Assembly: GCF_016495725.1 (NCBI RefSeq) | Contig: NZ_CP054705.1 | Location: 620,001-684,000, forward strand | DNA: 64,000 bases | Source: Salicibibacter cibarius | GTDB lineage: Bacteria; Bacillota; Bacilli; Bacillales; Marinococcaceae | Direction: 5' to 3' | Shown here: in pieces, positions 476 to 47,787 of the stretch | How positions within the stretch are numbered: position 1 is the first letter of the stretch | How the letters are laid out: the number at the start of each line of letters is the position of its first letter | The notes under the pieces: generated by a model | The model's input: only the letters and a program-made list of their open reading frames with translations | What the model was told of the DNA's origin: nothing | The model's database searches: none | Position numbers and translations under genes: made by a program

Positions 476-514
476 ATAAAATTAAAACATAATTGATTGC
501 GGAGGTATATATCA

Positions 515-961: not shown

Positions 962-998
962 ATCAATAACCTACTTGAAAAATTTGGAGGTCAGGGTT

Positions 999-1874: not shown

Positions 1875-1877
1875 AAC

Positions 1878-29407: not shown

Positions 29408-29520
29408 GAACTAATACTATTCGTATTTCCAAAACTTGATCTCTGATATTAGAACCTCAATGGTGCGTATGGTAAAATAAAAAGTATATTATTAGCTGTA
29501 TGGAAGGAAGGAGGCCTCCG

Positions 29521-30534: not shown

Positions 30535-30538
30535 GCAT

Positions 30539-31552
30539 ATGGATCGTTATTCCAGACAAACATTGTTCAAGCCGATGGGGATAGAAGGGCAACGCAGACT
30601 GGCAAACGGCCATGTGCTGATCGTCGGGGCTGGGGCGTTGGGGAGCGCCAACGCTGAGATGTTGACGAGGGCAGGCATTGGGAAGCTCACATTGATTGAT
30701 CGGGATTACGTGGAATATAGCAACTTGCATCGCCAGCAATTGTATACGGAAGCCGATGCCGTGGAGCAGTTGCCGAAAGCGGTTGCAGCAAAAACTCATC
30801 TGCAAGCCATTAACGGGGATACGGACGTACAGGCGCATATTATGGACGCGAGCGCGTCCAATCTTGAACCATTGCTTGAAACGGTCGACCTCATGATCGA
30901 TGGAACAGATAATTTTGACATTCGTTTCATTATGAACGATTTAGCGGCGAAAAATGAGATTCCGTGGCTGTTCGGGGCATTTGCCGGCAGTTACGGAATG
31001 GCGTATATGGTGAGGCCTTGGGACGGGCCGTGCCTAAACTGTTTATTGGCGTCGATTCCCTCTTCGGTCATGACTTGTGAAAGTGACGGGGTTATCGCGC
31101 CTGTCGTCCAACAAACGGCGCTTTTGCAGCTTGTGGAAGCGATGAAGTGGTTGACGGGCAACCGCGCATCGGTGGAGGAGCGCCTTGTTTTTTACGATGT
31201 GTGGCGGGGCGAGCAGCAACGGATGGGTGTGAGCCGTGTGAAGAGCGACGCGTGTCCAACGTGTGGGGAAGCTCCCGTGTACCCGTATTTGTCGACAGCC
31301 GAAGATGCCAAAACCGCGGTGCTTTGTGGGCGTGACACCGTACAAATCCGTCCGGAGCAAAAACGGAGTTTTGATTTGACGAACTTGGAAACGAAGTTGA
31401 AAGCGTATGGGACAACAAAACGGAATCCGTATTTGTTGTCCTGTGTGATGGGCGAGCATCGCCTCGCTGTGTTTCAGGACGGGCGTGTCCTTGTGCATGG
31501 GACAAAAAATATTGATCATGCGCGGGAATTGTATGAAACATATGTCTTGTGA
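30539..31552 (+). CDS. moeB: MoeB/ThiF-family adenylyltransferase
   Basis: Protein of 337 residues. ATG 30539 is chosen because AGGTGG lies 8 bases upstream; the GTG at 30527 overlaps that site. The nucleotide motif GAGALGS is at 30-36, the E1-like DRDYVEYSNLHRQQLY follows, and the zinc pairs are CLNC and CPTC. These enzymes adenylate the C-terminal Gly-Gly of MoaD or ThiS so that it can receive sulfur. The moa context (moaD is downstream) supports MoeB. A C-terminal extension of about 75 residues follows the zinc site and may replace a rhodanese-type domain. Confidence 0.88.
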   Translation: MDRYSRQTLFKPMGIEGQRRLANGHVLIVGAGALGSANAEMLTRAGIGKLTLIDRDYVEYSNLHRQQLYTEADAVEQLPKAVAAKTHLQAINGDTDVQAHIMDASASNLEPLLETVDLMIDGTDNFDIRFIMNDLAAKNEIPWLFGAFAGSYGMAYMVRPWDGPCLNCLLASIPSSVMTCESDGVIAPVVQQTALLQLVEAMKWLTGNRASVEERLVFYDVWRGEQQRMGVSRVKSDACPTCGEAPVYPYLSTAEDAKTAVLCGRDTVQIRPEQKRSFDLTNLETKLKAYGTTKRNPYLLSCVMGEHRLAVFQDGRVLVHGTKNIDHARELYETYVL

Positions 31553-31572
31553 AGGAAGGGGTTTGTGCGGCG

Positions 31573-32859
31573 ATGGTAGAAAAGCGAAAGCCGATGCCGG
31601 TGGCAGAAGCGGTACAAGCCGTCATGAATGTCGGCGGCAATGAAGCGAAGAAAGAAACGATCCCCCTCGCGAACAGCTACAGGCGTATACTAGCCGAAGA
31701 CCTCGTGGCCGACCATGATGTGCCGTCGTTTGATCGCTCGCCGTATGACGGTTTTGCCATCCGTGCCGCAGATAGCGCGGGGGCGAACAGAAATCGCCCT
31801 ATTTATTTCCGAGTTGCCGGGGAAATCGGTGCGGGGGAGGTATTCCCTCGTGAAGTACAAGAAGGGGAAGCCGTGCGTATCATGACAGGCGCACAAATAC
31901 CTGACGGTTGTGACGCGGTCGTGATGCTGGAGCTCATTGACGAAAATAGTGAAGAGATCATCGCCATCAAGCGTGCGTTTTCCCCCGGCGACAATATTTC
32001 TTTTCAAGGGGAAGATACCGAAAAGGGAGCCCGGCTTGTTCCCAAAGGGACATCGATCGATCCCGGCGTTATCGCTTTGCTTGCCACGTTTGGGTACGCG
32101 GAGGTGCCTGTGGCAATTCGTCCGCGCGTAGGTATTATCGCGACGGGGAGCGAGCTGCTGGAGGTTCATGAACCGTTGGAACCGGGAAAAATCCGTAATA
32201 GCAACGCGTATATGATGGCAGCCCAAGTCGAGCGGGCAGGCGGGGAACCGGTGCTTTTAGGGAAATTGCCGGATGATTTGGATGCCTGCATTGAAGCGGT
32301 TTCGCGCGCTTTGCAAGATGTGGACATGTTGATTACAACCGGCGGCGCTTCGGTCGGGGATTATGATTATGTTCCCGACATTATTGAACACCTAGGCGGA
32401 CATCCTTTGTTTAATAAAGTGGCGATGCGTCCGGGAAGCGTTACGACGGTCGCTGACATAGACAAAAAATTGTTCTTTGGGCTATCCGGAAATCCAAGTG
32501 CTTGCTTTGTTGGCTTTGAACTATTTGTTCGCCCAGTTCTGCGCCGGTCTCTTTTTTCCGAGAAACCGCATTTAAAAAGGACGAAAGCAACGCTCGGCAA
32601 AGATTATCCAAAACCGAATCCATTCACCCGCTTCGTGCGGGCAACGTTGGAAGAGGATGACGGACGTTTTGTGGCGAAGCCCGGCGGTCTCGATAAATCG
32701 GGATCCGTGACTTCTATCGCCGGGGCCGATGTTTTGATTGCGCTTCCGGGTGGCAGCCGCGGGTATGAGGCGGGAATGGATGTGGATATTTTCTTGCTGG
32801 AGGATCATAAAGGAAGCGAATGGCCATGGGACAGCAGTGTCGCGTCTTACAAGTCGTAG
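31573..32859 (+). CDS. moeA: Molybdopterin molybdenumtransferase MoeA
   Basis: Protein of 428 residues. ATG 31573 follows AAGGAAGGGG; the GTG at 31549 overlaps the moeB stop and is a weaker choice. Motifs include SFDRSPYDGFAIRAAD near the N-terminus, VPSFDRS, EGEAVRIMTGAQIPDGCDAV, the MoCF-domain GTIATGSEL-type IIATGSELLE and TTGGASVGDYD, and LPGGSRGYEAGMD near the end. MoeA inserts molybdate into adenylated molybdopterin. No MogA-type adenylyltransferase gene is seen in this window. Confidence 0.95.
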   Translation: MVEKRKPMPVAEAVQAVMNVGGNEAKKETIPLANSYRRILAEDLVADHDVPSFDRSPYDGFAIRAADSAGANRNRPIYFRVAGEIGAGEVFPREVQEGEAVRIMTGAQIPDGCDAVVMLELIDENSEEIIAIKRAFSPGDNISFQGEDTEKGARLVPKGTSIDPGVIALLATFGYAEVPVAIRPRVGIIATGSELLEVHEPLEPGKIRNSNAYMMAAQVERAGGEPVLLGKLPDDLDACIEAVSRALQDVDMLITTGGASVGDYDYVPDIIEHLGGHPLFNKVAMRPGSVTTVADIDKKLFFGLSGNPSACFVGFELFVRPVLRRSLFSEKPHLKRTKATLGKDYPKPNPFTRFVRATLEEDDGRFVAKPGGLDKSGSVTSIAGADVLIALPGGSRGYEAGMDVDIFLLEDHKGSEWPWDSSVASYKS

Positions 32860-33355
32860 GTTATAAAAATAGCGGGAAAACGACATTAATGGAAGAATTG
32901 GTGAAAGCATTTTCTGCTCGGGAGATGCACGTGGCGGCCTTGAAACATCACGGTCATGGGGGGGGCCGGCCGCCCCGGAACCTTCAACGGATAGCGAACG
33001 TTTTTCCCGGGCAGGTGCTAGTCTCTCCGCGGTCGAGGGGGATGGTGTTTTACGGTTGTCCGCGGTGCAAAATGGATGGTCATTGGAGCAATTATTGCGT
33101 GTTCAGGTGGGATTTGGACCTGATGTGATTCTTGTGGAAGGCTGGAAACACGCGAATTATCCCAAAGCCGTCTTGCTGCGCGGCCGTGAAGACTGGGGTA
33201 TTTTATCTGAACTTACCAATGTTTGTTGCGTGCTGTATCGGGGAGAAAAACCGCAAACAGAGCTGCCCTCTTTTTCTCTCGATGCGTCATCGCGCGATTA
33301 TATGCATTGGATCGTAAGCAAAGTGGAGGATAGCGATGCATTCAAATTTGTTTAA
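32826..33355 (+). pseudogene. mobB: Molybdopterin-guanine dinucleotide synthesis protein MobB, frameshifted
   Basis: The gene begins MGQQCRVLQVVGYKNSGKTT (P-loop) and runs to ALKHHGHGG. A run of eight G at 32958-32965 then throws it out of frame. In the next frame the protein continues normally (SRAGASLSAVEGDGVLRLSA, then QVGFGPDVILVEGWKHANYP) to a stop at 33353-33355. Six or nine G would restore one 175-residue reading frame. MobB is a GTPase that assists attachment of GMP to the cofactor. The intact sequence on both sides argues for a recent slip, a switchable tract or a sequencing error rather than long decay. Confidence 0.88.
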
Positions 33356-33791
33356 TTTAACGTGGGAATCTATCGACGTACAACAGGTGATTGATAAGGT
33401 CGTTGATCGAAATTGCGGGGCGATTGCAACGTTCATTGGAACCGTACGGGAAATGACCGCGGGTAAAAAAACGCTGCAGTTGGAATACCAAGCCTATGAG
33501 CCGATGGCGGTCAAAACGTTGGCGCAAATCGGTGAAAAGGTGCAAAGGAAATGGCCCGGGACAAAGGTTGCCATTACGCATCGTTTAGGCACGCTCGGCA
33601 TTTCCGATATCGCGGTCGTTATTGCTGTCTCGTCCCCGCACCGAAAACCTGCTTATGAAGCGAATGAATATATCATGGAACGAATCAAAGACATGGTTCC
33701 GATATGGAAAAAAGAATTTTGGGAAGACGGGACCCAATGGATCGGCGATCAACGGGAAACGACGTCCTATGAGAAGGAGGAGAATCGATGA
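33336..33791 (+). CDS. moaE: Molybdopterin synthase large subunit MoaE
   Basis: Protein of 151 residues. ATG 33336 overlaps the end of mobB by 20 bases. MoaE marks are FIGTVREMTAGKKTLQLEYQAY near the N-terminus, THRLGTLGISDIAVVIAVSS and the C-terminal active-site region VPIWKKEFWEDGTQW with the catalytic lysine. With MoaD it adds two sulfurs to cyclic pyranopterin monophosphate to give molybdopterin. The stop overlaps the moaD start by 4 bases (ATGA). Confidence 0.95.
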   Translation: MHSNLFNLTWESIDVQQVIDKVVDRNCGAIATFIGTVREMTAGKKTLQLEYQAYEPMAVKTLAQIGEKVQRKWPGTKVAITHRLGTLGISDIAVVIAVSSPHRKPAYEANEYIMERIKDMVPIWKKEFWEDGTQWIGDQRETTSYEKEENR

Positions 33792-34021
33792 TACAAGTAC
33801 TTCTTTTCGCCCGGGTTCAGGAAGAGGTAGGAGCTGATCGTCTCGAAGCAAATATGGCCGGAAAATCGATCAGGGAACTGAAACGTTGGATGGAAAGCCG
33901 TTATCCGGTGTCCTCGCTTGCGCGTACGATGACCGCCGTGAATGAAGAATTTGCAGGAGACGATGAAGTGATCAACGAGGGAGACACTGTGGCGTTTATT
34001 CCGCCCGTAAGTGGGGGATAA
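33788..34021 (+). CDS. moaD: Molybdopterin synthase sulfur carrier MoaD
   Basis: Protein of 77 residues with the ubiquitin-like beta-grasp pattern and the C-terminal Gly-Gly (ending PPVSGG) that becomes the thiocarboxylate. The FIPPVSGG tail is the standard MoaD end. It is translationally coupled to moaE and closes the moaA-moeB-moeA-mobB-moaE-moaD run. Confidence 0.95.
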   Translation: MIQVLLFARVQEEVGADRLEANMAGKSIRELKRWMESRYPVSSLARTMTAVNEEFAGDDEVINEGDTVAFIPPVSGG

Positions 34022-35415: not shown

Positions 35416-35814
35416 ATGAAACGAATCATTCTCAATATATGTGGCTCAATATCAGTCGCTTTAGGCGTGCTCGGAATTGTACTGCCCTTGTTGCCGACAA
35501 CACCGTTTCTATTGTTAGCGGCAGCTTGCTACGTTAGAAGTTCAGATAAATTGTACCACTGGTTAACCACGAATAAACATTTTGGCCCTTATATAAAAAA
35601 TTACCGTGAAGGAAAAGGGATCCCATTAAAAGCAAAAGTGACGGCAGTCGTGGTTTTATGGGTCTCTTTGGCTTTCACGATCTTTTTAATCATTCCTTTG
35701 ATTAGCATTCAATGGCTTCTGTTTTTCATCGGCGCGTGCGTGACCTGGTATATCCTCAAGCAAAAGACACTATATTTAAGCGAAGCGTCGCGCAACGAAC
35801 AACAGACTGAATGA
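35416..35814 (+). CDS. DUF454 (YbaN-like) membrane protein
   Basis: Protein of 132 residues starting behind AGTGGGGTG. The segments GSISVALGVLGIVLPLLPTT, PFLLLAAACYVRSS and the NYREGKGIPLKAKV loop are characteristic of the DUF454 family of inner membrane proteins. Two or three membrane segments. No function is known. Its 3' end overlaps the end of the convergent modB gene by 39 bases. Confidence 0.85.
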   Translation: MKRIILNICGSISVALGVLGIVLPLLPTTPFLLLAAACYVRSSDKLYHWLTTNKHFGPYIKNYREGKGIPLKAKVTAVVVLWVSLAFTIFLIIPLISIQWLLFFIGACVTWYILKQKTLYLSEASRNEQQTE

Positions 35815-36426
35815 TAATAATACAATCACGATTACCCACGCCCAGGCAAGTGTCGTGTCCCCGGCTTCCAACGCTGTAAAGATGGCGATCGGCATCGTTT
35901 GCGTACGACCTGGAATATTGCCCGCGAACATAAAAGTGGCTCCGAATTCGCCGAGCGCCCGGGAAAAGCTGAGGATGAGACCGGTGACGAGGGAACGGGA
36001 AATCAATGGCAGCGAAATATAAATAAATACTTGCCATTCATTAGCCCCGCTCACCCGTGCTGCTTCCTCGATTTCAGGTTCGATTGCTCCCATTCCAGTC
36101 TTGACGGCTTGATACATGAAAGGGAAACCGACAACGACGGCGACGAACACGGTTGCACTCCATGTAAACATCAGGGACTGTTCGAAGAAGAAATCAAGGA
36201 TTTGCCCTGCCCATCCGCTTGAACCAAAAATAATAATGAACAAAAAACCGATAACGGTTGGCGGCAGGACGGTAGGGAGCATAAACAGCGTCTCTACAGC
36301 CGTTTTGCCCGGGAAGCGCGTGCGAAACATCCAGCGGCCGAGGAGCGTGCCGAGCACAAAGATGATGACGAGCGCTGTAAAGGCGGTCTGAACTGAGATC
36401 AAGACCGGGCTCCAAAATTCATTCAT
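35776..36426 (-). CDS. modB: Molybdate ABC transporter permease ModB
   Basis: Protein of 216 residues, about five or six hydrophobic segments, with the ABC permease EAA-type loop EAARVSGANEWQVFIYISLP and the ModB-like RALGEFGATFMFAGNIPGRT and TMPIAIFTALEAGD. The start overlaps the modA stop by 4 bases. It would form the membrane channel for molybdate import. No modC ATPase gene follows; the next gene in that direction is on the other strand. Confidence 0.93.
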   Translation of the reverse strand: MNEFWSPVLISVQTAFTALVIIFVLGTLLGRWMFRTRFPGKTAVETLFMLPTVLPPTVIGFLFIIIFGSSGWAGQILDFFFEQSLMFTWSATVFVAVVVGFPFMYQAVKTGMGAIEPEIEEAARVSGANEWQVFIYISLPLISRSLVTGLILSFSRALGEFGATFMFAGNIPGRTQTMPIAIFTALEAGDTTLAWAWVIVIVLLSFSLLFVARRFA

Positions 36427-37229
36427 TCTTCGACCACCTCGTATCCATATGCTTCGTAGACGTCTTTGGCTTCATCACTGACGAGATAATCATAAATCTT
36501 CGCAGCGGCTTCCGGATGATCCGTGTCACGGACGATGCCGATGGGGTATAAAATGTCAGCGTGCAGATTTGCACTAATCGTCTCCCTCGTTTCGACCCGA
36601 TTAGAAGCTTCTGCATCCGTTTTAAACACAAATCCTGCATCTACACTGTTTTCTTCATTGTACGTGAGCACTTGTCGAACGCTCCTAGCTTGTACGATGT
36701 TATCTTCTAATTCCTCCCACATGTGCATGTTTTCCAACGCTTCTTTTGCGAATGTTCCTGCAGGTACACTTTCGGGAGTGCCTATGGCAATGGTTGCAAT
36801 GTTTGCTTTTGTTAGCTCTTCGACAGCGTCGATGGGCGTTTTTGTATTCGTGGGTTGGATTAAAACGAGATCGTTTGTCAGCAAATGTTCCGCTTGTTCC
36901 GGCTTGATTTTATCCGCTTCGACTAACGCGTTGAAATCCGCTTCCGATGCCGATAAAAAAATATCGAAGGGGGCGCCTTGCTCAATTTGCCGTTGCAATG
37001 ATCCCGATCCGCCAAATTGAAAGACGACGTCAATGTGTTCTTCTTGGTTTTCGATTTCTTTTTCCAAATCCCGAAGTGCATCTTGCATGCTGCTAGCTGC
37101 AGCTACCTGAATTTCGACGGTATCGTCTTCCTCCATTGAACAGGCGGAAAATAGCGTCAGCATGATTATGTAAAGAGAAGCCTTCAGAGGAGACCGAAGA
37201 CTTCTAAGCAAGGGCAAGAATTTTTTCAT
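36423..37229 (-). CDS. modA: Molybdate-binding lipoprotein ModA
   Basis: Protein of 268 residues. The start at 37229 (MKKFLPLL) is preferred; the longer frame to 37259 has no better ribosome site. A lipobox FSAC precedes the mature protein, then VQVAAASSMQDALRDLEKEI (here IQVAAASS), FGGSGSLQRQIEQGAPFDIF and a DAGFVFKTDA segment, the ModA ligand-site pattern. It would deliver molybdate to ModB, supplying the four or more molybdoenzymes encoded around it. Confidence 0.93.
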   Translation of the reverse strand: MKKFLPLLRSLRSPLKASLYIIMLTLFSACSMEEDDTVEIQVAAASSMQDALRDLEKEIENQEEHIDVVFQFGGSGSLQRQIEQGAPFDIFLSASEADFNALVEADKIKPEQAEHLLTNDLVLIQPTNTKTPIDAVEELTKANIATIAIGTPESVPAGTFAKEALENMHMWEELEDNIVQARSVRQVLTYNEENSVDAGFVFKTDAEASNRVETRETISANLHADILYPIGIVRDTDHPEAAAKIYDYLVSDEAKDVYEAYGYEVVEE

Positions 37230-37431
37230 TTCGTTCTTTTCGCTCCCGGGTTTCTGCAAGGTCGTATTTTTTCAATAAATGGAAGAGTTCGTTTAACGTT
37301 TCCTGGGATTGTTCCTGATTCAACAGGTGAGCGGCTTTAACATAAATGTTTTCCGGTAAATAAGGGTGTTGGTTGTCCAGTTTCTCTTTGACCTGTTCCG
37401 GTGTGTGGTCGATTGGGCAAGAAGACGCCAT
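37204..37431 (-). CDS. Small protein of unknown function upstream of modA
   Basis: Protein of 75 residues (MASSCPIDHTPEQVKEKLDN to KILALA). The start at 37431 follows AAAGGAG; longer starts have none. It is largely helical and charged, with one cysteine near the N-terminus, and no family was recognised. It overlaps the modA start by 26 bases, so the two are probably co-translated, and it may be a regulatory or accessory protein of molybdate uptake. Confidence 0.7.
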   Translation of the reverse strand: MASSCPIDHTPEQVKEKLDNQHPYLPENIYVKAAHLLNQEQSQETLNELFHLLKKYDLAETRERKERNEKILALA

Positions 37432-38387: not shown

Positions 38388-38547
38388 GTAGGTAAGAAAG
38401 TATAAATCAACTTTCTTACCTACATAAGTGCAACTAAGGCTTTTCGCCATAAAAGCTTGGCGAAAAGCCAAGTTTTCTAATACCAATCCCACCTCCAATC
38501 TCTAGAAAATTAGGGAGTCTCCCGCGATGAATCGGGATATTCCCTAA
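38388..38547. repeat. Three consecutive inverted repeats before the nitrate reductase-like operon
   Basis: Between the terminator and the next gene lie three hairpins in a row: GTAGGTAAGAAAGT (38388-38401 with 38410-38423, perfect), GGCTTTTCGCC (38438-38448 with 38459-38469, perfect), and TTAGGGA with TCCCTAA (38510-38547, with inner TCCCG and CGGGA arms). The last lies 62 bases before the operon's first gene and could be an operator. None has a proper T-tract. Confidence 0.55.
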
Positions 38548-38609
38548 TACCCCCCGGAGACGCTCTCTTCCTATAATAAAAGTATCACGGACTTCAAGGG
38601 AGAATGCAT

Positions 38610-39695
38610 ATGGAAACAATGAATGAGACCCCTATTAAAAGGTCTCAACGGCCACGCTTACATATTTTTGCTTCGAAATTTGCCAAAGCGATGTTTATCA
38701 CCATCATGGCTATTGCGGTTTTATCGTTTATCGGCACGCGAATGTTCACGCATGTGGATTTGAATTTGTACGGCTATATGGTAGGAACGGTCGTGTTTCT
38801 TGGCGGGATGTTTTACCGCTTTATCGCCTGGTCGGAACGGCCACCGACGAAAATTTTGTTGAAAAAAGGAATTCGTGTGTTGTTTTTGGGTTCCACTCCG
38901 AAAACAACCGTTGAACATCTGGGAACGTATCGATTTATTTGGAATCGAGGCCTTTATCGCTGGATCCAGCACGTGATGTTGGGATGGGGGACGATTCTCG
39001 CCTGCCTGATCACCTTCCCGCTCGTGTTCGGTTGGATGTATTTCACGATGGAAGAAAACGGCACGTACACCGTTGTCGCCATGGGAATGAACCTTATGCA
39101 AATCAGCGCGGATGGCGTTATGATCTTCCTGTTTTCCAACGGGCTGAATATTGCCGGGGTGATGGTGACGATTGGCGCTGCCATGGCCATTTACAGGCGT
39201 CGGAAAAACATGCAGGCAAGGGCTGAACAAAGCTTTCTTTACGATTATTTGCCGTTGTATCTTCTTTTGTTTGTCAGTGTCACAGGATTGCTCTTAACCT
39301 TCAGCAACATTGCTTTACACGGCTGGGGGCATTATACGATGTCGCTCATTCACCAGTTTTCCGTCATTGTCACGTTGATTTATGTGCCGTTTGGAAAGCT
39401 TGCCCACGTGCCCTTCCGTCCGCTCAGCATTTTTGCAAAAAATTATCGGGAACATTACGGCAACCAATCCATGAAAAAATGTAAAGTTTGCGGCGAAAAT
39501 TTCGTTTCTACGGAACAGTCCAATGACGTGATCGATGTTCTGAAGATGAACAACATTGATTTTCAAATGGAGGATGGCTTCCATTTAGCCGAACTTTGCC
39601 TGCCGTGCCGCAGAAAGTACCGTTTGTCGAGATTTTCAGGTGTTCCCACTCATGGGATCAAAGCTAAGGAGGCCAATCAGCATGCCGAAGGATAA
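38610..39695 (+). CDS. Membrane subunit of a molybdoenzyme complex, with zinc-ribbon tail
   Basis: Protein of 361 residues. ATG 38610 is preferred because AAGGGAG is 7 bases upstream; ATG 38604 is too close. It has five or six hydrophobic segments (about 28-45, 55-75, 124-150, 165-195, 222-245, 255-275) with histidines in and near them (for example QHVMLGWG, HGWGHYTM, IHQFSV), as in NarI-type or heterodisulfide-reductase-E-type cytochrome b subunits. The C-terminal part carries CKVC and LCLPC, a likely metal site. It is the first gene of the operon and overlaps the catalytic gene by 14 bases. It probably oxidises quinol for the enzyme; the haem assignment is inference. Confidence 0.7.
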   Translation: METMNETPIKRSQRPRLHIFASKFAKAMFITIMAIAVLSFIGTRMFTHVDLNLYGYMVGTVVFLGGMFYRFIAWSERPPTKILLKKGIRVLFLGSTPKTTVEHLGTYRFIWNRGLYRWIQHVMLGWGTILACLITFPLVFGWMYFTMEENGTYTVVAMGMNLMQISADGVMIFLFSNGLNIAGVMVTIGAAMAIYRRRKNMQARAEQSFLYDYLPLYLLLFVSVTGLLLTFSNIALHGWGHYTMSLIHQFSVIVTLIYVPFGKLAHVPFRPLSIFAKNYREHYGNQSMKKCKVCGENFVSTEQSNDVIDVLKMNNIDFQMEDGFHLAELCLPCRRKYRLSRFSGVPTHGIKAKEANQHAEG

Positions 39696-41847
39696 ATTTT
39701 TTCGGGATATAGAAAATATGCATCATCCCGATGAAACGTTAGTAAAAACGCATTGCAGTTATTGCGGGATGCAATGCGGGATGAACTTAAGGGTGAATAC
39801 GAAAACGAATAAAATCATTGGTGTGGAACCTCGTTACGATTGGCCGGTAACGGTTGGGAAAATGTGCCCGAAAGGCGTGACCGCCTATCAGCAAACGAAT
39901 CATGAGGATCGTATCCTCCGCCCGCTCATTCGCGATGATGCTTCTTTAAAAGGAACGAAAGAAGGATTTCGCGAGGCGAGCTGGGAAGAAGCCTACGATA
40001 AAATCACCGACAATTTCAAGCAACTGCAAACACGTTACGGGAAAAACAGCCTTTCCGTGTTTAGCGGCGTATCAATGACAAATGAAAAATGTTATTTAAC
40101 CGGTAAGTTCGCGCGCGTCGCGCTCGGGACGAAATACATCGACTACAACGGACGCTTTTGCATGTCCAGTGCCGCCGGCGGATTTTTACGATCGTTCGGG
40201 GTCGATCGGGGCTCGACGTTGCCATGGACCGACATTCACGAGACCGATTGTCTATTCATCGCCGGGAGCAACACAGCGGATTGCCATCCGACGTCAATGT
40301 TTCGCGTTTGGGAAGTGCAAACAAGAGGCGGTTACCTTATTGTCGCCGATCCCCGTGAAACTCCGATCGCGAGGCGGGCCGACATTCACCTTGATTTACG
40401 GCCGGGCACGGATCTTGCGCTCGCGAACGGCATTTTGCATCTTTTGATAAAAAATAACGATACAGACGATGCTTTCGTGGAAAAGCACACGAACGGTTTT
40501 GAAGAAACAAAAGAAGTGGTGAAATCTTTCACTCCGGAATACACAAGTGAGATCACCGGTATAGAGAAGGATAAAATTATCCGTGCCGCACACATTTACG
40601 GAAAAGCCCCGAACGCAATTGTCATGTTCGCACGCGGCATTGAGCAGCAGCGTAAAGGGGTCGATAACGTGTCGGCTTATACGAACCTTGCGCTCGTCAC
40701 CGGGAAAATCGGGCGCCCGAAAGCCGGCGTCGCTACGTTTACCGGTCAGGGGAACGGGCAAGGCGGACGAGAACACGGTCAGAAATCAGATCTGCTCCCG
40801 GGCTACAGAAAGATTACCGACCCGGAGAATGTCAAAGCCGTGAGCGAAGTATGGGGCATTGACCCGGAAGAAATGCCGGAAGAAGGCGTTTCCGCTTACG
40901 AGATGATCGAGTTGATGGCGCAAAAAGAGATTCGCGGATTGTACTTATTATGCTCGAACCCTGCCGTTTCTGCGCCCAATCTCAATTTTGTCAAACAAGC
41001 ATTGAAAACCCTTGATTTTATGGTCTGTTCCGACTTTTTTATATCCGAATCGGCGGAGTTTGCCGACGTGATTTTGCCGGCAGTAAGTTGGTCGGAAGAT
41101 GAAGGCACGGTCACTAATCTTGAAGGGCGGATCATTAAAATCAACAAAGCGCAAGAACCAATCGGAGAATCAAAGCCGGATTGGCAAATGCAAGTTGAAC
41201 TTGCGGAACGGTTGGACAGAGGACAATATTTTACGCATTTGCAAACGGCTGAGGATATAGCTGATGAATTTAGGCGCGCCACCAAAGGCGGGGTCGCCGA
41301 TTATTACGGGGCAACCTGGGACAAAATCGATAAACAGGATGGTGTCTTTTGGCCTTGTATAGATGAAAAAGACACGGGAACACCTCACATGTTTCTAGAC
41401 AAGACATTTTATCATCCCGACGGAAAGGCAAAAATTTGCGCCCTTCCTTACCGCGGAGCCGGCGAAGAACCGGATGGGGACTACCCACTGTATTTAACGA
41501 CCGGGCGTGTCGTCTATCATTATTTATCCGGCAACCAGACCCGCCGAATTCCGTTTCTCTCCGATATGGCCCCGGAGCCTTATGTGGAGATGCATCCGGA
41601 TACGGCTCGCGCATACGGATTGGCGCACGAGGAAGCGGTTCGGCTCACGACGCGGAGAGGGGCAACAGTGTTTAAAGTGAAAATCACCGAGGCCATTCGT
41701 CCGGATACGCTGTTCGTCCCCTATCATTATGGCCATGAAGAAGCGATTAACTTGTTAACGAACGCAGCGCTTGACCCCATCTCGAGGATGCCCGAGTTCA
41801 AAGTTTGCGCGGTACGCATGCACAAATTGGAAGCTGAGAAGGTGTAG
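39682..41847 (+). CDS. Molybdopterin oxidoreductase catalytic subunit (nitrate reductase-like, NarB/NasC type)
   Basis: Protein of 721 residues. ATG 39682 follows AAGGAGG. An N-terminal 4Fe-4S site uses C25, C28, C32 and C62 (CSYCGMQC and KMCPKG). The molybdenum ligand is probably C160 in NGRFCMSSAAGG. Further marks are FIAGSNTADCHPT, GQGNGQGGREHGQKSD and LPAVSWSEDEGTVTNLEGR. There is no twin-arginine signal, so the enzyme is cytoplasmic. The family includes assimilatory nitrate reductases and formate dehydrogenases; the NarK-like and NreA-like neighbours point to nitrate. Confidence 0.85.
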   Translation: MPKDKFFRDIENMHHPDETLVKTHCSYCGMQCGMNLRVNTKTNKIIGVEPRYDWPVTVGKMCPKGVTAYQQTNHEDRILRPLIRDDASLKGTKEGFREASWEEAYDKITDNFKQLQTRYGKNSLSVFSGVSMTNEKCYLTGKFARVALGTKYIDYNGRFCMSSAAGGFLRSFGVDRGSTLPWTDIHETDCLFIAGSNTADCHPTSMFRVWEVQTRGGYLIVADPRETPIARRADIHLDLRPGTDLALANGILHLLIKNNDTDDAFVEKHTNGFEETKEVVKSFTPEYTSEITGIEKDKIIRAAHIYGKAPNAIVMFARGIEQQRKGVDNVSAYTNLALVTGKIGRPKAGVATFTGQGNGQGGREHGQKSDLLPGYRKITDPENVKAVSEVWGIDPEEMPEEGVSAYEMIELMAQKEIRGLYLLCSNPAVSAPNLNFVKQALKTLDFMVCSDFFISESAEFADVILPAVSWSEDEGTVTNLEGRIIKINKAQEPIGESKPDWQMQVELAERLDRGQYFTHLQTAEDIADEFRRATKGGVADYYGATWDKIDKQDGVFWPCIDEKDTGTPHMFLDKTFYHPDGKAKICALPYRGAGEEPDGDYPLYLTTGRVVYHYLSGNQTRRIPFLSDMAPEPYVEMHPDTARAYGLAHEEAVRLTTRRGATVFKVKITEAIRPDTLFVPYHYGHEEAINLLTNAALDPISRMPEFKVCAVRMHKLEAEKV

Positions 41848-41850
41848 ATC

Positions 41851-42414
41851 ATGATGAAAAGAAGACTGTATATCGAACTGGAAAATTGCATTGGCTGCCG
41901 CGCTTGCCTGGCGGCTTGCACGCAATGCGGCGGTCATGAACAACGCAACCGCAATTATGTGTATGACATCAATCCGTTTGTGGACACGCAGACGATGCCG
42001 CTCATGTGTTTGCACTGTGAAGACCCGCCTTGTGCCCGCAGTTGCCCGGCACAAGCGATTCAAATTCATGAATCGGGAGCCGTATTGTCGGCCATGGCGG
42101 AGAAATGCATTGGTTGTCAAAATTGCACGATTGCTTGTCCTTACGGCATTCCTAAATTTGATGAAGAACAAAACCTAATGTATAAATGCGACCTTTGCAT
42201 TGATCGCACGCAATATGACATCCCGCCGATGTGCGCCAGCGTGTGTCCGTCGAATACATTGCAATGGCTCACGGAAGAAGAAATCGAGAACAAACAGCGC
42301 CGTCATGATCTGGATAACGGCAAATGGGTGGCGAGCATGCCGCCTTTGGAAAACGAAACGAACGTGAAAATTAATCTTCCCGGTATTTTGCAGGGGACGG
42401 AAAAACTGTTTTAA
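41851..42414 (+). CDS. Four-cluster 4Fe-4S electron transfer subunit
   Basis: Protein of 187 residues with four cysteine groups, as in DmsB/NrfC/PsrB-type subunits: CIGCRACLAAC, CLHCEDPPCARSC, CIGCQNCTIAC and CDLC followed by CASVC. It starts 3 bases after the catalytic gene. It would pass electrons between the membrane subunit and the molybdopterin subunit. NarH, the classical partner of respiratory nitrate reductase, is more than twice as long, so this is not a standard Nar complex. Confidence 0.9.
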   Translation: MMKRRLYIELENCIGCRACLAACTQCGGHEQRNRNYVYDINPFVDTQTMPLMCLHCEDPPCARSCPAQAIQIHESGAVLSAMAEKCIGCQNCTIACPYGIPKFDEEQNLMYKCDLCIDRTQYDIPPMCASVCPSNTLQWLTEEEIENKQRRHDLDNGKWVASMPPLENETNVKINLPGILQGTEKLF

Positions 42415-42430
42415 AAGGGGGGCGACGAAA

Positions 42431-42949
42431 ATGACAGAGCAAAATAAACCTTATGAAGAGGATAATTATACGCATAATATTCACCGCAACAGAGAGCGGA
42501 CGCTTGACCGGCGTGGGTTTATGAAAACAATGGTTGGGGCAGCAGGCGTTTTCGCCGTAAGTTCCTTGCCTTGGGGCGGCGTGGCAGCCCGGGAATTGTG
42601 GAATTTTGCTGATGATGAAGACGAGCGGCAAAAAATCGCCAATGTCACCGATGTGCCGGTCGGTGAATCGTTCGATTTTACGTACCCGACGGAGCATGAC
42701 AGCGCGCTCCTCATTCGGCTTGCCGAGAACGATTATGTTGCTTACCAAAACGCCTGCACACATCTTCAATGTCCTGTTTTCTGGGAAAAAGAAAGTTGGG
42801 AAATGATCTGTCCCTGCCATCACGGATACTTTAGCGCCGAAACCGGTGAGCCGACGGGCGGTCCGCCAAGGCGGCCGCTCCCGGAAATTGAATTGCAAGT
42901 GCAGGATGGAACCATTTACGCAGTGAAGGTGAAACGTTATGAAGCGTAG
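42431..42949 (+). CDS. Tat-exported Rieske 2Fe-2S protein
   Basis: Protein of 172 residues. The N-terminus carries a twin-arginine signal (LDRRGFMK, R27-R28) with a hydrophobic segment to about residue 47, which may remain as a membrane anchor. The Rieske motif is CTHLQC (C109, H111, C114) and CPCHH (C127, C129, H130), the pattern of high-potential quinol-oxidising Rieske proteins with an extra disulfide. It lies between the ferredoxin-like gene and a small membrane gene in the same operon. It could take electrons from menaquinol at the outer face together with the multi-helix subunit. Confidence 0.92.
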   Translation: MTEQNKPYEEDNYTHNIHRNRERTLDRRGFMKTMVGAAGVFAVSSLPWGGVAARELWNFADDEDERQKIANVTDVPVGESFDFTYPTEHDSALLIRLAENDYVAYQNACTHLQCPVFWEKESWEMICPCHHGYFSAETGEPTGGPPRRPLPEIELQVQDGTIYAVKVKRYEA

Positions 42950-43139
42950 CTATGTGGGTGTGCTAGCCCTTTGTCTCGTGTTGTTACTTAACATCGTTTT
43001 TTTGCAATTGGCCGTCCATCAATTTTTTTTCGAACGATACACGCTCGTTCTTATCTACGTTGCTCTTAATATTTTATTGTTTCCGATCGCTTTGTGGATC
43101 TATAAAAAAGAAAAAAATCAAACGATGAATTCGGGCTAA
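42939..43139 (+). CDS. Two-helix membrane peptide of the operon
   Basis: Protein of 66 residues with two hydrophobic segments (about 6-28 and 35-56), short loops and a charged KKEKNQ end. ATG 42939 overlaps the Rieske gene by 11 bases and its TAA directly touches the next start codon. No family recognised. Probably a small structural subunit or assembly factor of the membrane complex. Confidence 0.75.
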   Translation: MKRSYVGVLALCLVLLLNIVFLQLAVHQFFFERYTLVLIYVALNILLFPIALWIYKKEKNQTMNSG

Positions 43140-43499
43140 ATGTGGAGTTTAGGACATCTTATCCGTTATGAGGATGAAAACAGACAAAAATTATCCGAAA
43201 AGGGTGTTGATCCAGTGGAAAGCAAAGAATTTCAACCATTGCAACGGGAGCAGATCCCTGTCTGGGTTTGTATCCGCGATGAACATAACAGAGAGGGGGC
43301 TCCATGGGTGATGAAAACGATGGAACAAATATCCTTCTGTCCGGATCACACTCATTTACGGTTCTATTTTCAAGACGGAACTTTTTTAGCTGTCCCGCTT
43401 GCCTCGACGGTGCAGCAAACGGGCAAGGAATGGTGCGCTCGTGATCGGGAAACCGGGCTTTCGTATTTGATTAAAATGGAGGAGAAAGTATATGCGTGA
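43140..43499 (+). CDS. Unknown soluble protein of the nitrate reductase-like operon
   Basis: Protein of 119 residues beginning MWSLGHLIRYEDENRQKLSE. ATG 43140 follows directly on the preceding stop. No signal, membrane segment or known motif was found; there are three cysteines (WVCIRDE, SFCPD, EWCARD), not arranged as a cluster site. It overlaps the NarK-like gene by 8 bases. The position suggests an assembly chaperone similar in role to NarJ, but there is no sequence support for that. Confidence 0.7.
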   Translation: MWSLGHLIRYEDENRQKLSEKGVDPVESKEFQPLQREQIPVWVCIRDEHNREGAPWVMKTMEQISFCPDHTHLRFYFQDGTFLAVPLASTVQQTGKEWCARDRETGLSYLIKMEEKVYA

Positions 43500-44700
43500 A
43501 AAAATCCAGCTACCATTACAGACGGCGAATTTTGTCGTTGGCTTCATGGTATGGGTGCTCATATCTTCATTAATTCCACATATACAAGAAGATATCGCCC
43601 TTACCTCCAATCAAGTCGCTTGGGTTACCGCCATTCCCGTCATCTTGGGGTCAATCTTACGCGTGCCGATGGGTTGGTTAACAAATTTGTTTGGGGCGCG
43701 GACGATATTCGTCGCCAGCTTCGTACTTCTCTTATTACCTGTCTACTATATAAGCATAGCGACTACGTTGACTGATTTAATCATCGGTGGCTTGTTTCTC
43801 GGGATCGGCGGGGCGGTGTTTTCCGTTGGTGTCACTTCATTGCCGAAGTACTATCCGAAAGAGCGGCAAGGCCTAGTGAACGGCATTTACGGCGCGGGGA
43901 ACATCGGCACGGCGATTACGACTTTTTCTGCGCCGGCCATCGCGGTTGCGATCGGCTGGCAAGCAACGGTTCAACTTTATATGGTGCTTTTAGGCCTTTT
44001 TATTCTCATGACCTTTTTCTTCGGCGATAAAAAGGAAGAAAAAATAAAGACATCGATGGCGGAACAAATCAAAGGGGTTTACCGAAACGAGAAACTATGG
44101 CTTTTCAGCTTGTTTTATTTTATTACGTTTGGTTCATTTGTGGCGTTTACAGTATTCCTCCCAACGTTTCTTGTCAATCATTTCAGCTTGGAGACTGTGG
44201 ATGCCGGCATGCGAACCGCAGGTTTTATTGCCCTTGCCACGCTTCTAAGGCCGATCGGCGGGTGGCTCGCCGATCGTTTCAATGCCATGTATCTTTTAAT
44301 GGTTGTGTTTGCCGGCTTTACCGTGGCGGCGATTGTCCTTGCTTTTTCCCCGTCCATCGGTTTGTTTACGATTGGTTGCCTGGCGATCGCGGCGAGCGGC
44401 GGAATCGGAAACGGCGTCGTTTTCAAACTCGTTCCGTCATATTTCACGGAACATACCGGGATGGTCAACGGGATTGTATCCGCGATGGGCGGGCTTGGCG
44501 GTTTTTTCCCGCCGTTGATTTTAACGTCCCTCTACAGTCTCACCGGGCATTACGCCATTGGCTTTATGGCATTGTCACAAGTCTCACTGGCAAGTTTGAT
44601 CCTCGTGATTTGGCTCCATTATCATGACAAAAATTCCATTCGGGATGAATCAGGCGAGGGGATGCAATACGCCGGTGCCTTCAATGATAGCGGAAAATGA
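43492..44700 (+). CDS. narK: NarK-like nitrate/nitrite MFS transporter
   Basis: Protein of 402 residues, ATG 43492 after GGAGGAG. It has about twelve hydrophobic segments and the nitrate/nitrite porter family marks: RVPMGWLTNLFGARTIFVAS after helix 2, GIGGAVFSVGVTSLPKYYPK and GLVNGIYGAGNIGTAITTF, a nitrate signature (G-rich) motif, with a second copy as EHTGMVNGIVSAMGGLGGFF. It imports nitrate or exchanges it for nitrite. It follows the catalytic genes in the same operon and is the strongest hint that the enzyme reduces nitrate. Confidence 0.9.
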   Translation: MREKIQLPLQTANFVVGFMVWVLISSLIPHIQEDIALTSNQVAWVTAIPVILGSILRVPMGWLTNLFGARTIFVASFVLLLLPVYYISIATTLTDLIIGGLFLGIGGAVFSVGVTSLPKYYPKERQGLVNGIYGAGNIGTAITTFSAPAIAVAIGWQATVQLYMVLLGLFILMTFFFGDKKEEKIKTSMAEQIKGVYRNEKLWLFSLFYFITFGSFVAFTVFLPTFLVNHFSLETVDAGMRTAGFIALATLLRPIGGWLADRFNAMYLLMVVFAGFTVAAIVLAFSPSIGLFTIGCLAIAASGGIGNGVVFKLVPSYFTEHTGMVNGIVSAMGGLGGFFPPLILTSLYSLTGHYAIGFMALSQVSLASLILVIWLHYHDKNSIRDESGEGMQYAGAFNDSGK

Positions 44701-44725
44701 AAATACGATACGAGGAGATGACGCT

Positions 44726-45361
44726 ATGGAACAGCAAACAGTACACGCGAGCCGTTACATGATACAATCACAGGAAGAAGAATTAAAAAGGGTCAGTGAC
44801 GAACTTCATGACGGCATTTGCCAACGTCTATATAGCATTCATATCGGACTTCACGCGATTGAATCGGCACTCGAAGGTTCGGATTTGAAACAGTATGTCC
44901 TGCAAATGTCAGGTGAGCTGTCGAGCGCGATTCTGCAATTACGTCATTTGTCGGAAGAACTTTATCCCCCTACGCTAACGACATTAGGGTTAACACCTGC
45001 GATGAAAAATTATGCCCAATTGTTCACGTCAACGTTTGGCGTTGTTGTCGAGATTTCCTCGAATGGACCGGAAAAAATCTTGTCCGAACAAAAAAGTTTA
45101 AATGTTTTTCGCGTTTGTCAGGAAGCGTTGATCAATATTGCAAAATATGCGGAAGTTGCAACGGCTTCGCTCCAGTTCACATGGGAAGAAGAAACGTTGA
45201 AAATAGTGATAGAGGACGCCGGGAAAGGGTTTGATGCAAAGGATGTCCAATTTTTGGGGATCGCGGCGATGAAGAAACGAATGCGTCTCGCCGAAGGCGA
45301 TTTCCAACTTTCATCCCAGCTTGGCAAGGGCACAAAGATCATGCTGTCATTATCCATCTGA
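44726..45361 (+). CDS. Cytoplasmic sensor histidine kinase without a sensor domain
   Basis: Protein of 211 residues. ATG 44726 follows GAGGAGATG; the frame open to 44624 overlaps narK in full and is less likely. It consists of only the HisKA_3 dimerisation part with the phospho-acceptor H28 (ELHDGICQRLY) and the HATPase domain with VCQEALINIAKYA and EDAGKGFD. It lacks a PAS, GAF or membrane part, so it must take its signal from another protein. A second, complete kinase is encoded 1.1 kb downstream. Confidence 0.87.
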   Translation: MEQQTVHASRYMIQSQEEELKRVSDELHDGICQRLYSIHIGLHAIESALEGSDLKQYVLQMSGELSSAILQLRHLSEELYPPTLTTLGLTPAMKNYAQLFTSTFGVVVEISSNGPEKILSEQKSLNVFRVCQEALINIAKYAEVATASLQFTWEEETLKIVIEDAGKGFDAKDVQFLGIAAMKKRMRLAEGDFQLSSQLGKGTKIMLSLSI

Positions 45362-45382
45362 AAGAACAGGAGGGGTGTCCAG

Positions 45383-46039
45383 TTGATACGGGTACTGTTA
45401 GTCGATGACCACGCGGTCGTGCGCATGGGATTAAAAATGTTATTGAATTCTCTCGAAGACATGGAAGTTGTCTCAGAAGCCTCGGAAGGCAATGAGGCAA
45501 TTGAAAACGCGCATGAAACGCGGCCGGATGTCATTTTGATGGACTTTAGCATGCCGCACGGAAAAGACGGTTTATCTGCGACGGAAGAATTAAAAAACCA
45601 ACTCCCTGACACGGCGATTTTGATTTTGACGATGCACGATGATGAAGAATATTTATTTCGGGCGGTACAGGCCGGTGCTTCCGGGTGCGTGTTAAAGAGT
45701 GCTCCTCACGAAGAGTTGATTCAAGCGATTCGAAATGTCAGCAACGGCGAAGCATATTTAACCCCTTCCGCAACGAAACGGTTAATGGATGAATACTTAG
45801 GAGCAATGAAAGAGCATGGGACGGATGTTTACCAACAGCTTTCCGCCCGGGAAAAGGAAGTCCTGACATTGATTGCGAAAGGGTACGCGAACAAAGAAAT
45901 CGCCGAACAGCTTTACATTAGTGTAAAAACCGTGGAAGCCCACAGAAGCAAACTCATGGACAAGCTGCAAATGAAAACAAGGCCCGAGTTGGTTTCTTAC
46001 GCATTAAAGAAAGGATTGCTCGGCAGTGCCATCCAATAA
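45383..46039 (+). CDS. nreC: LuxR-type response regulator (NreC-like)
   Basis: Protein of 218 residues starting at TTG 45383 after CAGGAGGGG. The receiver domain has the acidic pair D8-D9, phosphorylated D54 (VILMDFSMP) and K104-type lysine in CVLKSAPHEE. The C-terminal NarL/LuxR helix-turn-helix reads LSAREKEVLTLIAKGYANKE and SVKTVEAHRSKLMDKL. It is the only regulator among two kinases and probably controls the nitrate operon upstream. It overlaps the GAF gene by 14 bases. Confidence 0.93.
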   Translation: MIRVLLVDDHAVVRMGLKMLLNSLEDMEVVSEASEGNEAIENAHETRPDVILMDFSMPHGKDGLSATEELKNQLPDTAILILTMHDDEEYLFRAVQAGASGCVLKSAPHEELIQAIRNVSNGEAYLTPSATKRLMDEYLGAMKEHGTDVYQQLSAREKEVLTLIAKGYANKEIAEQLYISVKTVEAHRSKLMDKLQMKTRPELVSYALKKGLLGSAIQ

Positions 46040-46457
46040 ACTTATTGATTTAAAGACGGATCTTGGTTGTGACTTCGTCGGCATCGCCCTTAGAGATCAA
46101 AATCTTGTCGATATTACTTGGCCCTACGCTGTTGGCTATACGAACGATAAATACTTTCGTATTAAACTTCGTTATGGAAAAGGACTCGCCGGCCAAGTGA
46201 TGAGCAGTTGCAGTGCGATGGAAATCAACCGTTTTCCCGATAACGTACGCGGCAAAGCGACAGACTACCCTATTATGTTGGCAGAAAAGCTGGTGTCAGC
46301 CTTTTCCGTTCCCATATTAAGGGACGGGAAAGCGGCAGGTGTTTTGCTTGCCGGTTACCGGACGGCTCATGACTTCCATGCAGCGGAAAAAAAGAAAGTG
46401 GAGCAAGCAGCTGTTGGCGTTTCAAAGGAGGTTTTCGAGCATGGAGAGCAGGGATAA
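46026..46457 (+). CDS. nreA: GAF-domain nitrate receptor (NreA-like)
   Basis: Protein of 143 residues, start GTG 46026 inside the 3' end of the response regulator gene. A single GAF domain with [31 protein letters not shown] and [20 protein letters not shown]. This follows the NreA pattern of a cytoplasmic nitrate-binding GAF protein that inhibits the NreB kinase in staphylococci. It overlaps the second kinase by 17 bases. The ligand is inferred from similarity and context, not shown. Confidence 0.8.
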
Positions 46458-47787
46458 AAAAACGGAACCGGAAGCAACGATCGTCATCGATGCCCTTTCA
46501 ACGATTCAATCGATTAATCCGGAAGCGCTAAGGATTTTCAGTCGTTCTGCCGAAGAATTAGATGGTCAACCCATTCAAAGGCTTATACCGAAATTCAAAC
46601 CTCATCGTCTCGAAGAAGATCGGCCCGCTCTTCAGTTCGGAGAAAGCAGCAAGGGTGAGCGCGTGCCTCTTTTTCTTCGCAAACATTCATTTACGCTGAA
46701 AAAGGAAAACTATACGCTTTTAATTTTACAATATACCCAAAACTATCCCGTGTCCGATACAGATCCGGAGAAAATATTCAAGGAACTCTTGGATACGAAA
46801 TTTGCCCTTGATAAATCAACGATTCTGGCGATTACTGATCAAAAGGGCATCATTCAATATGTGAACAAAAAGTTTTGTGAAGTGTCGCAGTATTCACGGG
46901 AGGAATTGATTGGCCGGGACCATCGCGTCGTGAATTCCGGCTATCATTCAAAAGATCTTATCCGTGATCTCTGGCGTACGATCGCGAGGGGCCGCGTTTG
47001 GACCGGGGAATTAAAAAACAAGGCAAAAGACGGCAGTTTTTACTGGGTCGACTCGACGATCGTTCCCTTTTTAAATGAAGAGGGGAAACCATATCAATAT
47101 CTGGCCATACGTTTTGAAATTACGGAACGAAAACGAGTGGAGGAAGAATTGCAACAAACGATGATGAAAATCATGGACGTTCAGGAAGAAGAGCGGCGCA
47201 AACTCTCGATGGAACTGCATGATGGCATCGGGCAAAATTTATATAGCCACCTGATTACGATCAATCGACTGCATGCTGTGAAGGCCCACCCACTCATTGA
47301 ACAGTTGCGTGATGAAGCCTCTGCGCTCATTGAAGAAGTGCGGGAAATATCGTGGGAGCTCCGTCCGTCCGTGCTCGATGACCTTGGCCTCGTCTCCGCC
47401 CTTCGCTCGTTTTTTAATCGTTACAGGGAACATTACAACATCCATATTTCTTTTGATTATTCGCTGACCCGGCACTTGCCCGATCATGTTGAAACGGCGA
47501 TTTACCGAATGGTTCAGGAATCACTGACTAATATCCGAAAATATGCAAACGTGGATGAGGCCTCTGTTGCGGTAAATGAAGATGACGAATGTATTCACGT
47601 TAAAGTCGAAGATAGCGGCATTGGCTTTGAGAAAAACCAGGCTCGCTCCGGGGTCGGGTTGGTGAGCATGGAAGAAAGGGCTAAATCCGTGAATGGAGCG
47701 TTGCGTTTAACGACAGCACCGGGAATGGGCACAACGGTTGAGTTACAAGTGCCGTTGACGCAAATAGCTACGGCAGAAAAGTTATAG
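46441..47787 (+). CDS. nreB: PAS-domain sensor histidine kinase (NreB-like)
   Basis: Protein of 448 residues. ATG 46441 lies within the nreA-like gene; the frame open further upstream belongs to that gene. An N-terminal PAS-like region (about 10-100, [14 protein letters not shown]) is followed by a clear PAS/PAC domain (about 120-230, [29 protein letters not shown]), then the HisKA_3 part with H260 ([12 protein letters not shown]) and an HATPase domain ([21 protein letters not shown]). Classical NreB carries four cysteines for an oxygen-sensing 4Fe-4S cluster in its PAS domain. Only one cysteine (KKFCEV) is seen here, so oxygen sensing by that route is unlikely. Confidence 0.87.

Follow-up and report, generated by a model that had tools for sequence, protein, structure and literature searches.

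The Rieske/cytochrome b nitrate reductase of haloarchaea serves for comparison here, as does arsenite oxidase AioBA, which is exported. The clade of molybdenum enzymes that includes NasC, AioA and NapA is stated, in the parts of Wells et al. (2020, PMC7331816) available to us, never to have four-cluster or membrane-anchor partners, and NasC is described there as assimilatory only. In the available parts of Heylen and Keltjens (2012, PMC3475470), a NasC of 729 residues from B. bataviensis, encoded with an iron-sulphur gene (called HCP) and a Rieske gene, is read as an alternative assimilatory enzyme. As far as those parts of Wells et al. go, a direct exception to the statement on the NasC/AioA/NapA clade is an operon of Salicibibacter cibarius (contig NZ_CP054705.1, positions 620,001 to 684,000; this whole stretch of 64,000 nucleotides is the window below). 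Seven plus-strand genes follow one another at window positions 38610-44700, and we consider it probable that the products of the first five, B-A-C-D-E, together form a menaquinol-nitrate reductase that sits in the membrane and conserves energy, with the Rieske protein as its quinol partner on the outer face of the membrane. The seven genes are:

38610..39695, plus strand: B, NarI-like membrane subunit, 361 residues, six helices and a HycF-like C-terminal domain with two CxxC pairs (residue numbers of B, as in H123, H250 and H268, count from an alternative ATG at 38604)
39682..41847, plus strand: A, NasC-like catalytic molybdopterin subunit, 721 residues, with a [4Fe-4S] domain and an R-F-C-M molybdenum site (start picked from relatives; the open frame begins at GTG 39640)
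41851..42414, plus strand: C, DmsB-like ferredoxin, 187 residues, with room for four [4Fe-4S] clusters
42431..42949, plus strand: D, Rieske protein (PF00355), 172 residues, with a twin-arginine signal-anchor
42939..43139, plus strand: E, two-helix membrane peptide, 66 residues, with two hydrophobic segments
43140..43499, plus strand: F, small beta-rich protein, 119 residues, with a CPDxTHxR motif
43492..44700, plus strand: NarK-family nitrate/nitrite transporter, 402 residues (TIGR00886, 226.9 bits, below the cut-off of 311.7)

An earlier reading of this DNA, made from its letters alone (the sequence-only reading), had listed a NarB/NasA-size catalytic subunit without a twin-arginine translocation (Tat) signal, a DmsB-like ferredoxin, a Tat-type Rieske protein, a membrane subunit, a two-helix peptide and NarK, and all these parts are indeed present. 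Its list did not extend to F (43140-43499), to the NreB-, NreC- and NreA-type genes and PAS kinase that follow (44624-47787), or to a double palindrome upstream (38513-38544). It also proposed a survey of gene order in Bacillaceae, which we carried out on the best 80 of 159 relatives, from Bacillaceae, Paenibacillus and others. In 79 of these 80 loci, the genes run B-A-C-D-E on a single strand; the remaining locus (L066) ends at a contig edge. All 37 further loci fetched from genomes, of which three duplicate members of the first set (L106 = L021, L114 = L042, L115 = L035), have the order B-A-C-D, with a small gene directly after D in 34 of them. On plasmids of Deinococcus sp. NW-56 and D. psychrotolerans, the five genes stand in identical order, followed by a second gene of the major facilitator superfamily (MFS), and are annotated as 'MFS transporter', molybdopterin oxidoreductase, 4Fe-4S, Rieske and DUF6755; identity to the window is about 33-34% for B and, in NW-56, 47% for A. 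The plasmid collection held four matching records, all from Deinococcus (two of the four were opened). The Rieske gene was found wherever the sequence reached, namely, in 79 of 79 loci of the 80-locus set, 37 of 37 fetched loci and both Deinococcus loci. The metal ligands of B, C and D are unchanged across the two phyla. Gene order and ligands persist even where B is only about 33-34% identical, so the operon is more than a chance arrangement and, judged by sequence, B-A-C-D-E is one conserved module whose composition is well supported.

Among 299 sampled genomes of the window's order, 68 carry the operon (strong matches). Five of the initial 73 were dropped before counting (E 9.9e-5 to 8.8e-4), and three of these weak matches (G045, G064, G290), which each adjoin a NarG gene, are probably NarI. 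The class sample yielded the operon in 36 of 348 genomes, and the phylum sample in 2 of 398, both from the window's order. We divide the operons of Bacilli into three clades. In clade I, B is 66-74% identical to that of the window (14 of the 67 other strongly matching genomes of the order sample), and in clades II and III, about 34-42% (53 of 67). A gene that we read as truncated-globin-like follows E in six clade III loci, and the neighbourhoods of clade II and III operons repeatedly contain Crp/FNR-like, Mrp-like and cofactor genes. At one locus (L092:10299-11039), an Mrp-like ATPase gene, with relatives near other clade II and III operons, lies inside the operon between C and D; its product might load iron-sulphur clusters. 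Two others (L099 and L126) have the catalytic gene broken into two frames, through either mutation or sequencing error.

The best match of the catalytic subunit A is the NasC model (NF047855, 867.8 bits, under the cut-off of 1100), and against the NarG model TIGR01580 it scores 50.1 bits (cut-off 1084.15). We compared A-type proteins in a 35-row tree that included 15 operon rows and 11 NasC encoded beside NirB genes. The NasC group together (100/100), as do, in a single group of their own, clades I and II of operon A (100/99), and the rest of the tree has several long branches; as far as these sequences go, operon A branches separately from the NasC encoded in nas operons. The sequence-only reading had called A NarB/NasA-like, which is right as to the kind of enzyme and needs amending in that A, with its score short of the NasC cut-off, belongs to this separate branch. 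The molybdenum site reads R-x-C-M in all 15 operon rows, 11 of 11 NasC, the NapA row and one NasA row, compared with R-x-C-Q in both formate dehydrogenase rows, R-L-C-H in an unannotated haloarchaeal row and no cysteine in two AioA-type rows; the cysteine ligand of the window's A is C174. Because R-x-C-M is shared with NasC and NapA and not with the formate dehydrogenase or AioA rows, nitrate reduction is the best guess for A, although not proof. A hydropathy scan found no hydrophobic segment in A, and no twin arginine is seen in its N-terminus.

The membrane subunit B had been described in the sequence-only reading as a multi-helix protein with a CxxC tail, and both the predicted model, with six long helices, and the hydropathy scan agree with this, the tail holding two CxxC pairs. 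The sole Pfam match at E <= 0.01 is PF02665 (20.8 bits, below the cut-off of 22.9). When the B profile was aligned with that of 12 NarI proteins in hhalign, residues 184-275, that is, transmembrane helices (TM) 4 to 6, matched with a probability of 95.8 and E 6.8e-9; a match to the QmoC family (37.8 bits) is far below that family's cut-off. The tail (289-342) fits E. coli HycF with a root-mean-square deviation (rmsd) of 1.7 over 51 residues at 26% identity (VIA), and HycF was the only match, at E 1.2, in a search with the sequence profile. The charge pattern places the N-terminus, the loops 78-122 and 198-211 and the tail on the cytoplasmic side.

In all 60 rows compared (59 of them distinct), B keeps three histidines, H123, H250 and H268, and the four cysteines of the tail without change. 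There is no fourth invariant histidine in these rows; the helix of H123 lacks a second histidine, with only Ser or Ala found ten residues past H123. In E. coli NarI, the haem-b histidines are His56, His66, His187 and His205, of which His66 and His187 bind the distal haem (PMC5338063, as far as available to us). H250 and H268, 18 residues apart, aligned with the last two haem histidines of NarI in three MAFFT runs, and the full set of four haem-b histidines of NarGHI is not found in B. Because there are three invariant histidines and no fourth, the distal-haem site of B looks incomplete and would keep at most one usual ligand. The overall resemblance of B to NarI with a HycF-like tail fits quinol oxidation.

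The sequence-only reading had suggested a quinol-cycle-like link from a Rieske protein outside the membrane and a cytoplasmic reductase. A link to quinol finds some backing in the NarI-like B with its HycF-like tail. B resembles NarI and does not supply the bc-type cytochrome b partner of the bc1 and b6f complexes. We dropped the bc1-type Rieske/cytochrome b interpretation because B matches NarI-like families and not cytochrome b, although one cytochrome b6 chain stands at rank 21 of the VIA comparison (Z 6.5); as B is not a bc-type cytochrome b, the sequence gives no ground for a classical Q cycle.

The ferredoxin C has 17 cysteines that are invariant in 58 of 58 rows and are kept in the alignment that contains Deinococcus. 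It scores 97.3 bits against the DmsB-type model TIGR02951 (below the cut-off of 214.1) and 37.5 bits against the NarH model TIGR01660 (cut-off 524.05). The Rieske protein D matches PF00355 (40.6 bits, cut-off 20.3) and carries an RRGFMK twin-arginine motif and one hydrophobic segment. Its ligand and disulphide residues C109/H111/C114 and C127/C129/H130 are invariant in 58 of 58 rows, with the twin arginines kept, and the complete Rieske set C-x-H-x2-C plus C-P-C-H is also invariant in a 10-row alignment with two Deinococcus proteins. The nearest solved relatives of D are bc-type Rieske proteins and AioB; against the arsenite oxidase Rieske model TIGR02694, D scores 53.8 bits (below 95.65). No Pfam family scored over its cut-off for E of the window, and its positional counterparts in Deinococcus match DUF6755 (PF20540); a literature search on this family gave no description of the five-protein complex.

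F has a counterpart in 65 of the 80 loci. Its model has a predicted local distance difference test score (pLDDT) of 77.4, with no Foldseek fold match at E <= 0.001 and no family in domain searches. Many clade I operons, not including that of the window, have a gene for about 100 residues between E and F (L106:10790-11101, L006, L010, L028, L044, L022, L050 and L009), which has no Pfam family and of which several products end in a CxSCG-like sequence.

The genome of the window is 98.9% complete and encodes three PF00384 proteins, namely, A, a TorA/BisC-like enzyme and a formate dehydrogenase. Profile searches found no NarG, NirB or NirK over cut-off and no NrfA in it, and its sole PF01077 gene is CysI, beside CysJ. 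In the order sample, NarG over cut-off occurs in 11 of 68 genomes with the operon and 44 of 231 without it (p 0.72, no difference), leaving 57 of the 68 without NarG; 31 lack a NirB-type gene over cut-off, and 24 have neither. NarG over cut-off is present in 6 of 20 operon genomes tested from the 80-locus set. Bacillus sp. DNRA2 (locus L044), in which no NarG over cut-off was found among the matches listed, carries at least B and A in triplicate, from two clades; the stretches taken hold B, A, C and D (L181), B, A and C (L179) or B and A (L178). The other molybdenum enzyme genes examined in this strain are two DmsA/YnfE-like ones (one over cut-off) and one formate dehydrogenase. DNRA2 turns nitrate to nitrite and then to ammonium after O2 depletion (PMC10653820); in the parts of that paper available to us, the authors do not tie nitrate reduction to the operon.

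The surroundings of the operon in the window comprise the following features:

38513..38523, no strand: upstream palindrome 1, GGGAGTCTCCC (GGG-N5-CCC), from the upstream-region comparison, the motif being picked post hoc
38534..38544, no strand: upstream palindrome 2, GGGATATTCCC, its centre 21 base pairs from that of palindrome 1
38572..38577, plus strand: TATAAT, possible -10 element, from the sequence only
44624..45361, plus strand: NreB-type sensor kinase, start codon uncertain (PF07730, PF02518; named by arrangement)
45383..46039, plus strand: NreC-type response regulator (PF00072, PF00196)
46026..46457, plus strand: NreA-type GAF nitrate sensor (NF038250, 81.9 bits, below the cut-off of 175; named by best match and arrangement)
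46339..47787, plus strand: PAS-domain histidine kinase, start codon uncertain (PF13426, PF07730, PF02518)
29500..34021, plus strand: molybdenum cofactor genes moaA, moeB-like, moeA, moaE and moaD (Pfam matches)
35776..37259, minus strand: ModB/ModA-like permease and binding protein (PF00528, PF13531), with a role in molybdate uptake suggested by the setting

Of the 75 loci whose sequence extends far enough, 60 have an NreC-like gene (at least 60% identity) within 6 kilobases downstream; 26 have a NarK that is at least 50% identical, and 35 have any NarK-like gene. The GGG-N5-CCC palindrome occurs within 300 base pairs upstream in 54 of 61 NreC-linked operons (the window included), compared with a mean of 3.5 and a maximum of 7 in 20 shuffles, and in only 4 of 19 operons without an NreC link; these counts are post hoc, the motif having been found by comparing the same upstream regions, and one of the 80 loci was left out for too little sequence. 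An FNR-like site with at most one mismatch precedes 11 of the 19 operons without an NreC link (shuffles mean 0.1) versus 3 of the 61 with one. Scans of the window with two mismatches allowed stayed at chance level, both for a staphylococcal NreC box (TAGGG-N4-CCCTA; 16 matches, 13.67 expected) and for an FNR box (25 matches, 27.72 expected). The upstream sites and the NreC- or FNR-type setting suit control of the operon by oxygen and nitrate.

Farther from the operon, the window holds a gene set of the xanthine-dehydrogenase/CO-dehydrogenase family (26927-29296), whose large subunit matches PF02738 and PF20256, and, from frame inspection alone, a second such set (497-4717) and two transposase-like sets (17619-19948 and 20333-21733). 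Outside the window, on Cytobacillus firmus plasmid p1 (L135), an arsenite-oxidase-like gene pair adjoins phosphate transport genes.

In the menaquinol-nitrate reductase that we favour, A and C, which have no export signals, would lie on the cytoplasmic side. The pair H123/H268 of B would be fit to hold one haem b near the cytoplasm, with the single invariant H250 near the outer face and the four-cysteine tail in the cytoplasm. Menaquinol would give up its electrons on the outer side of the membrane, at a site between the Rieske cluster and the part of B around H250, with release of protons outside, and electrons would pass through the haem or haems of B to C and then to A. Nitrate would be reduced inside by A with proton uptake, closing a redox loop as in NarGHI, with NarK exchanging nitrate and nitrite and the operon presumably induced by anoxia and nitrate through NreABC-type or FNR-type regulators. 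The Rieske centre may compensate for the incomplete distal-haem site as the first or second electron acceptor from quinol. We infer the route of the Rieske electron through the complex; it could lead to a second haem held by H250 and another residue, the Rieske centre could be a temporary acceptor that returns the electron, or an outer carrier could take it. A further-reaching version, which we put forward tentatively and hold to be doubtful, is a respiratory nitrate reductase of a third architecture that would split the two quinol electrons at the outer face between the Rieske protein and the single-histidine side of the NarI-like B. Both electrons would end at the cytoplasmic NasC-type site, or one would be diverted to an outer carrier, so that a Q-cycle-like step would have evolved on the NarI fold independently of cytochrome bc.

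Several points weigh against a menaquinol-nitrate reductase. The top eight rows of the VIA comparison of the B model were NarI (Z 7.8-8.5, rmsd 4.6-5.4, 134-151 residues), followed by EtfD (Z 7.5), but a Z of about 8 can be reached by chance for helical bundles. Foldseek found no match of B with E <= 0.001, its first rows being rhodopsins and other receptors, and the model itself is middling (pLDDT 65.1, predicted template modelling score 0.53). H123 did not align with the first haem histidine of NarI in three MAFFT runs, the alignment of TM3 being unsettled, and the inner pair H123/H268 is therefore based on topology. If the only haem were the one near the cytoplasm, it would be far from the Rieske cluster, and a second, unusually ligated haem would be needed. 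In the 35-row tree, the branch that puts operon A and NasC on one side has weak support (82/52). For DNRA2, the finding of no NarG over cut-off holds among the matches listed (10 of 14 rows), and NapA was not searched for. The literature searched, with most subscription journals outside its coverage, contained neither biochemistry nor a description of the five-protein complex.

A NirB-type gene is enriched in the genomes with the operon (37 of 68 versus 48 of 231 without it, p 2e-7; the model also matches NasB-like proteins), which is a further point against our interpretation and suits ammonification or assimilation. An alternative assimilatory nitrate reductase, in which the ferredoxin and the Rieske protein would merely feed NasC for nitrogen supply, could draw on this enrichment, on NasC being the best NCBI model for A, and on the 2012 reading for B. 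bataviensis (PMC3475470, in the parts available). However, a soluble cytoplasmic enzyme has no use for a NarI-like membrane subunit and an exported Rieske protein, and neither the window's genome nor the 31 operon genomes noted above have a NirB-type nitrite reductase over cut-off. Moreover, four genomes (G079, G116, G047 and G274) carry both the operon and a separate nas-operon NasC, the latter 43-46% identical to A of the window, and the NreABC- or FNR-type setting also speaks against assimilation, which we therefore regard as rather unlikely.

Alternatively, the enzyme could be respiratory, with B alone handling quinol like NarI, the distal haem being held by H250 and a ligand other than histidine, and the Rieske protein forming a side branch that would trade electrons with an outer cytochrome or protect the quinol site. 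The TM6 pair H250/H268 does align with that of NarI, and D resembles the Rieske proteins of bc complexes and arsenite oxidase, which exchange electrons with carriers on the outside; still, the presence of the Rieske gene in every locus reached fits a core role better, and the window's operon contains no gene recognised as cytochrome c. We regard this side-branch arrangement as quite unlikely. That A is in truth some other molybdenum enzyme, such as a formate dehydrogenase, and a nitrate reductase in name only, we consider very improbable: the score against TIGR01591 (657 bits) is narrowly below the cut-off of 666.25, the DNRA2 relative at L178 exceeds it (682 bits), and the sequence-nearest solved structures are formate dehydrogenases, but A has R-x-C-M in place of the R-x-C-Q of the two formate dehydrogenase rows, is 33-34% identical to formate dehydrogenases versus 43-46% to nas-operon NasC, and adjoins narK and an NreA-type nitrate sensor.

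In genome annotation, the module will probably be labelled assimilatory NasC, formate dehydrogenase or 'MFS transporter'. If the operon respires nitrate, surveys of narG and napA overlook nitrate respirers among spore-formers, and strains like DNRA2 would gain their missing first step; more generally, the operon could explain nitrate breathing in bacteria without the textbook enzyme. A NarI-like subunit with a seemingly incomplete distal-haem site and an obligatory Rieske protein would be a test case for rewired quinol oxidation.

Compared with known systems, the operon shares with arsenite oxidase AioBA a Rieske protein with a Tat signal beside a molybdenum enzyme, and the Rieske sequences are similar, but the AioA rows lack the cysteine ligand that is present in operon A. 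With the cytochrome bc1 and b6f complexes and the haloarchaeal Rieske/cytochrome b nitrate reductase, it shares an outer-face Rieske protein with the full ligand set of the high-potential type, whereas a bc-type cytochrome b is missing and the catalytic subunit would face inward. QmoC, TmcC, DsrM, EtfD and HycF recall B through NarI-like cytochrome b domains and, in HycF, the tail; B is far below their cut-offs, and none of them is combined here with NasC and a Rieske protein. The NasC of the NasBC-NirBD systems of Bacillales are the closest catalytic subunits found here (43-46% identity) and share the R-x-C-M site, but A is on a separate branch below the NasC cut-off, and its operon partners are a membrane subunit, a ferredoxin and a Rieske protein rather than NasB or NirB. 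The NasC, iron-sulphur and Rieske set of B. bataviensis is, by description rather than by a check of identity, very probably the same operon, although the available parts of that account (PMC3475470) do not mention the membrane subunit or E. With NarGHI, the operon has in common a NarI-like membrane subunit, a four-cluster ferredoxin, a molybdopterin subunit on the cytoplasmic side, and NarK and NreABC-type neighbours. It differs from NarGHI in that the catalytic subunit is of the NasC type with 721 residues (NarG has about 1230) and the ferredoxin is short, that B carries one more helix at the N-terminus than NarI, ends in a four-cysteine tail and has no more than three invariant histidines, and that a Rieske protein and a two-helix subunit are added.

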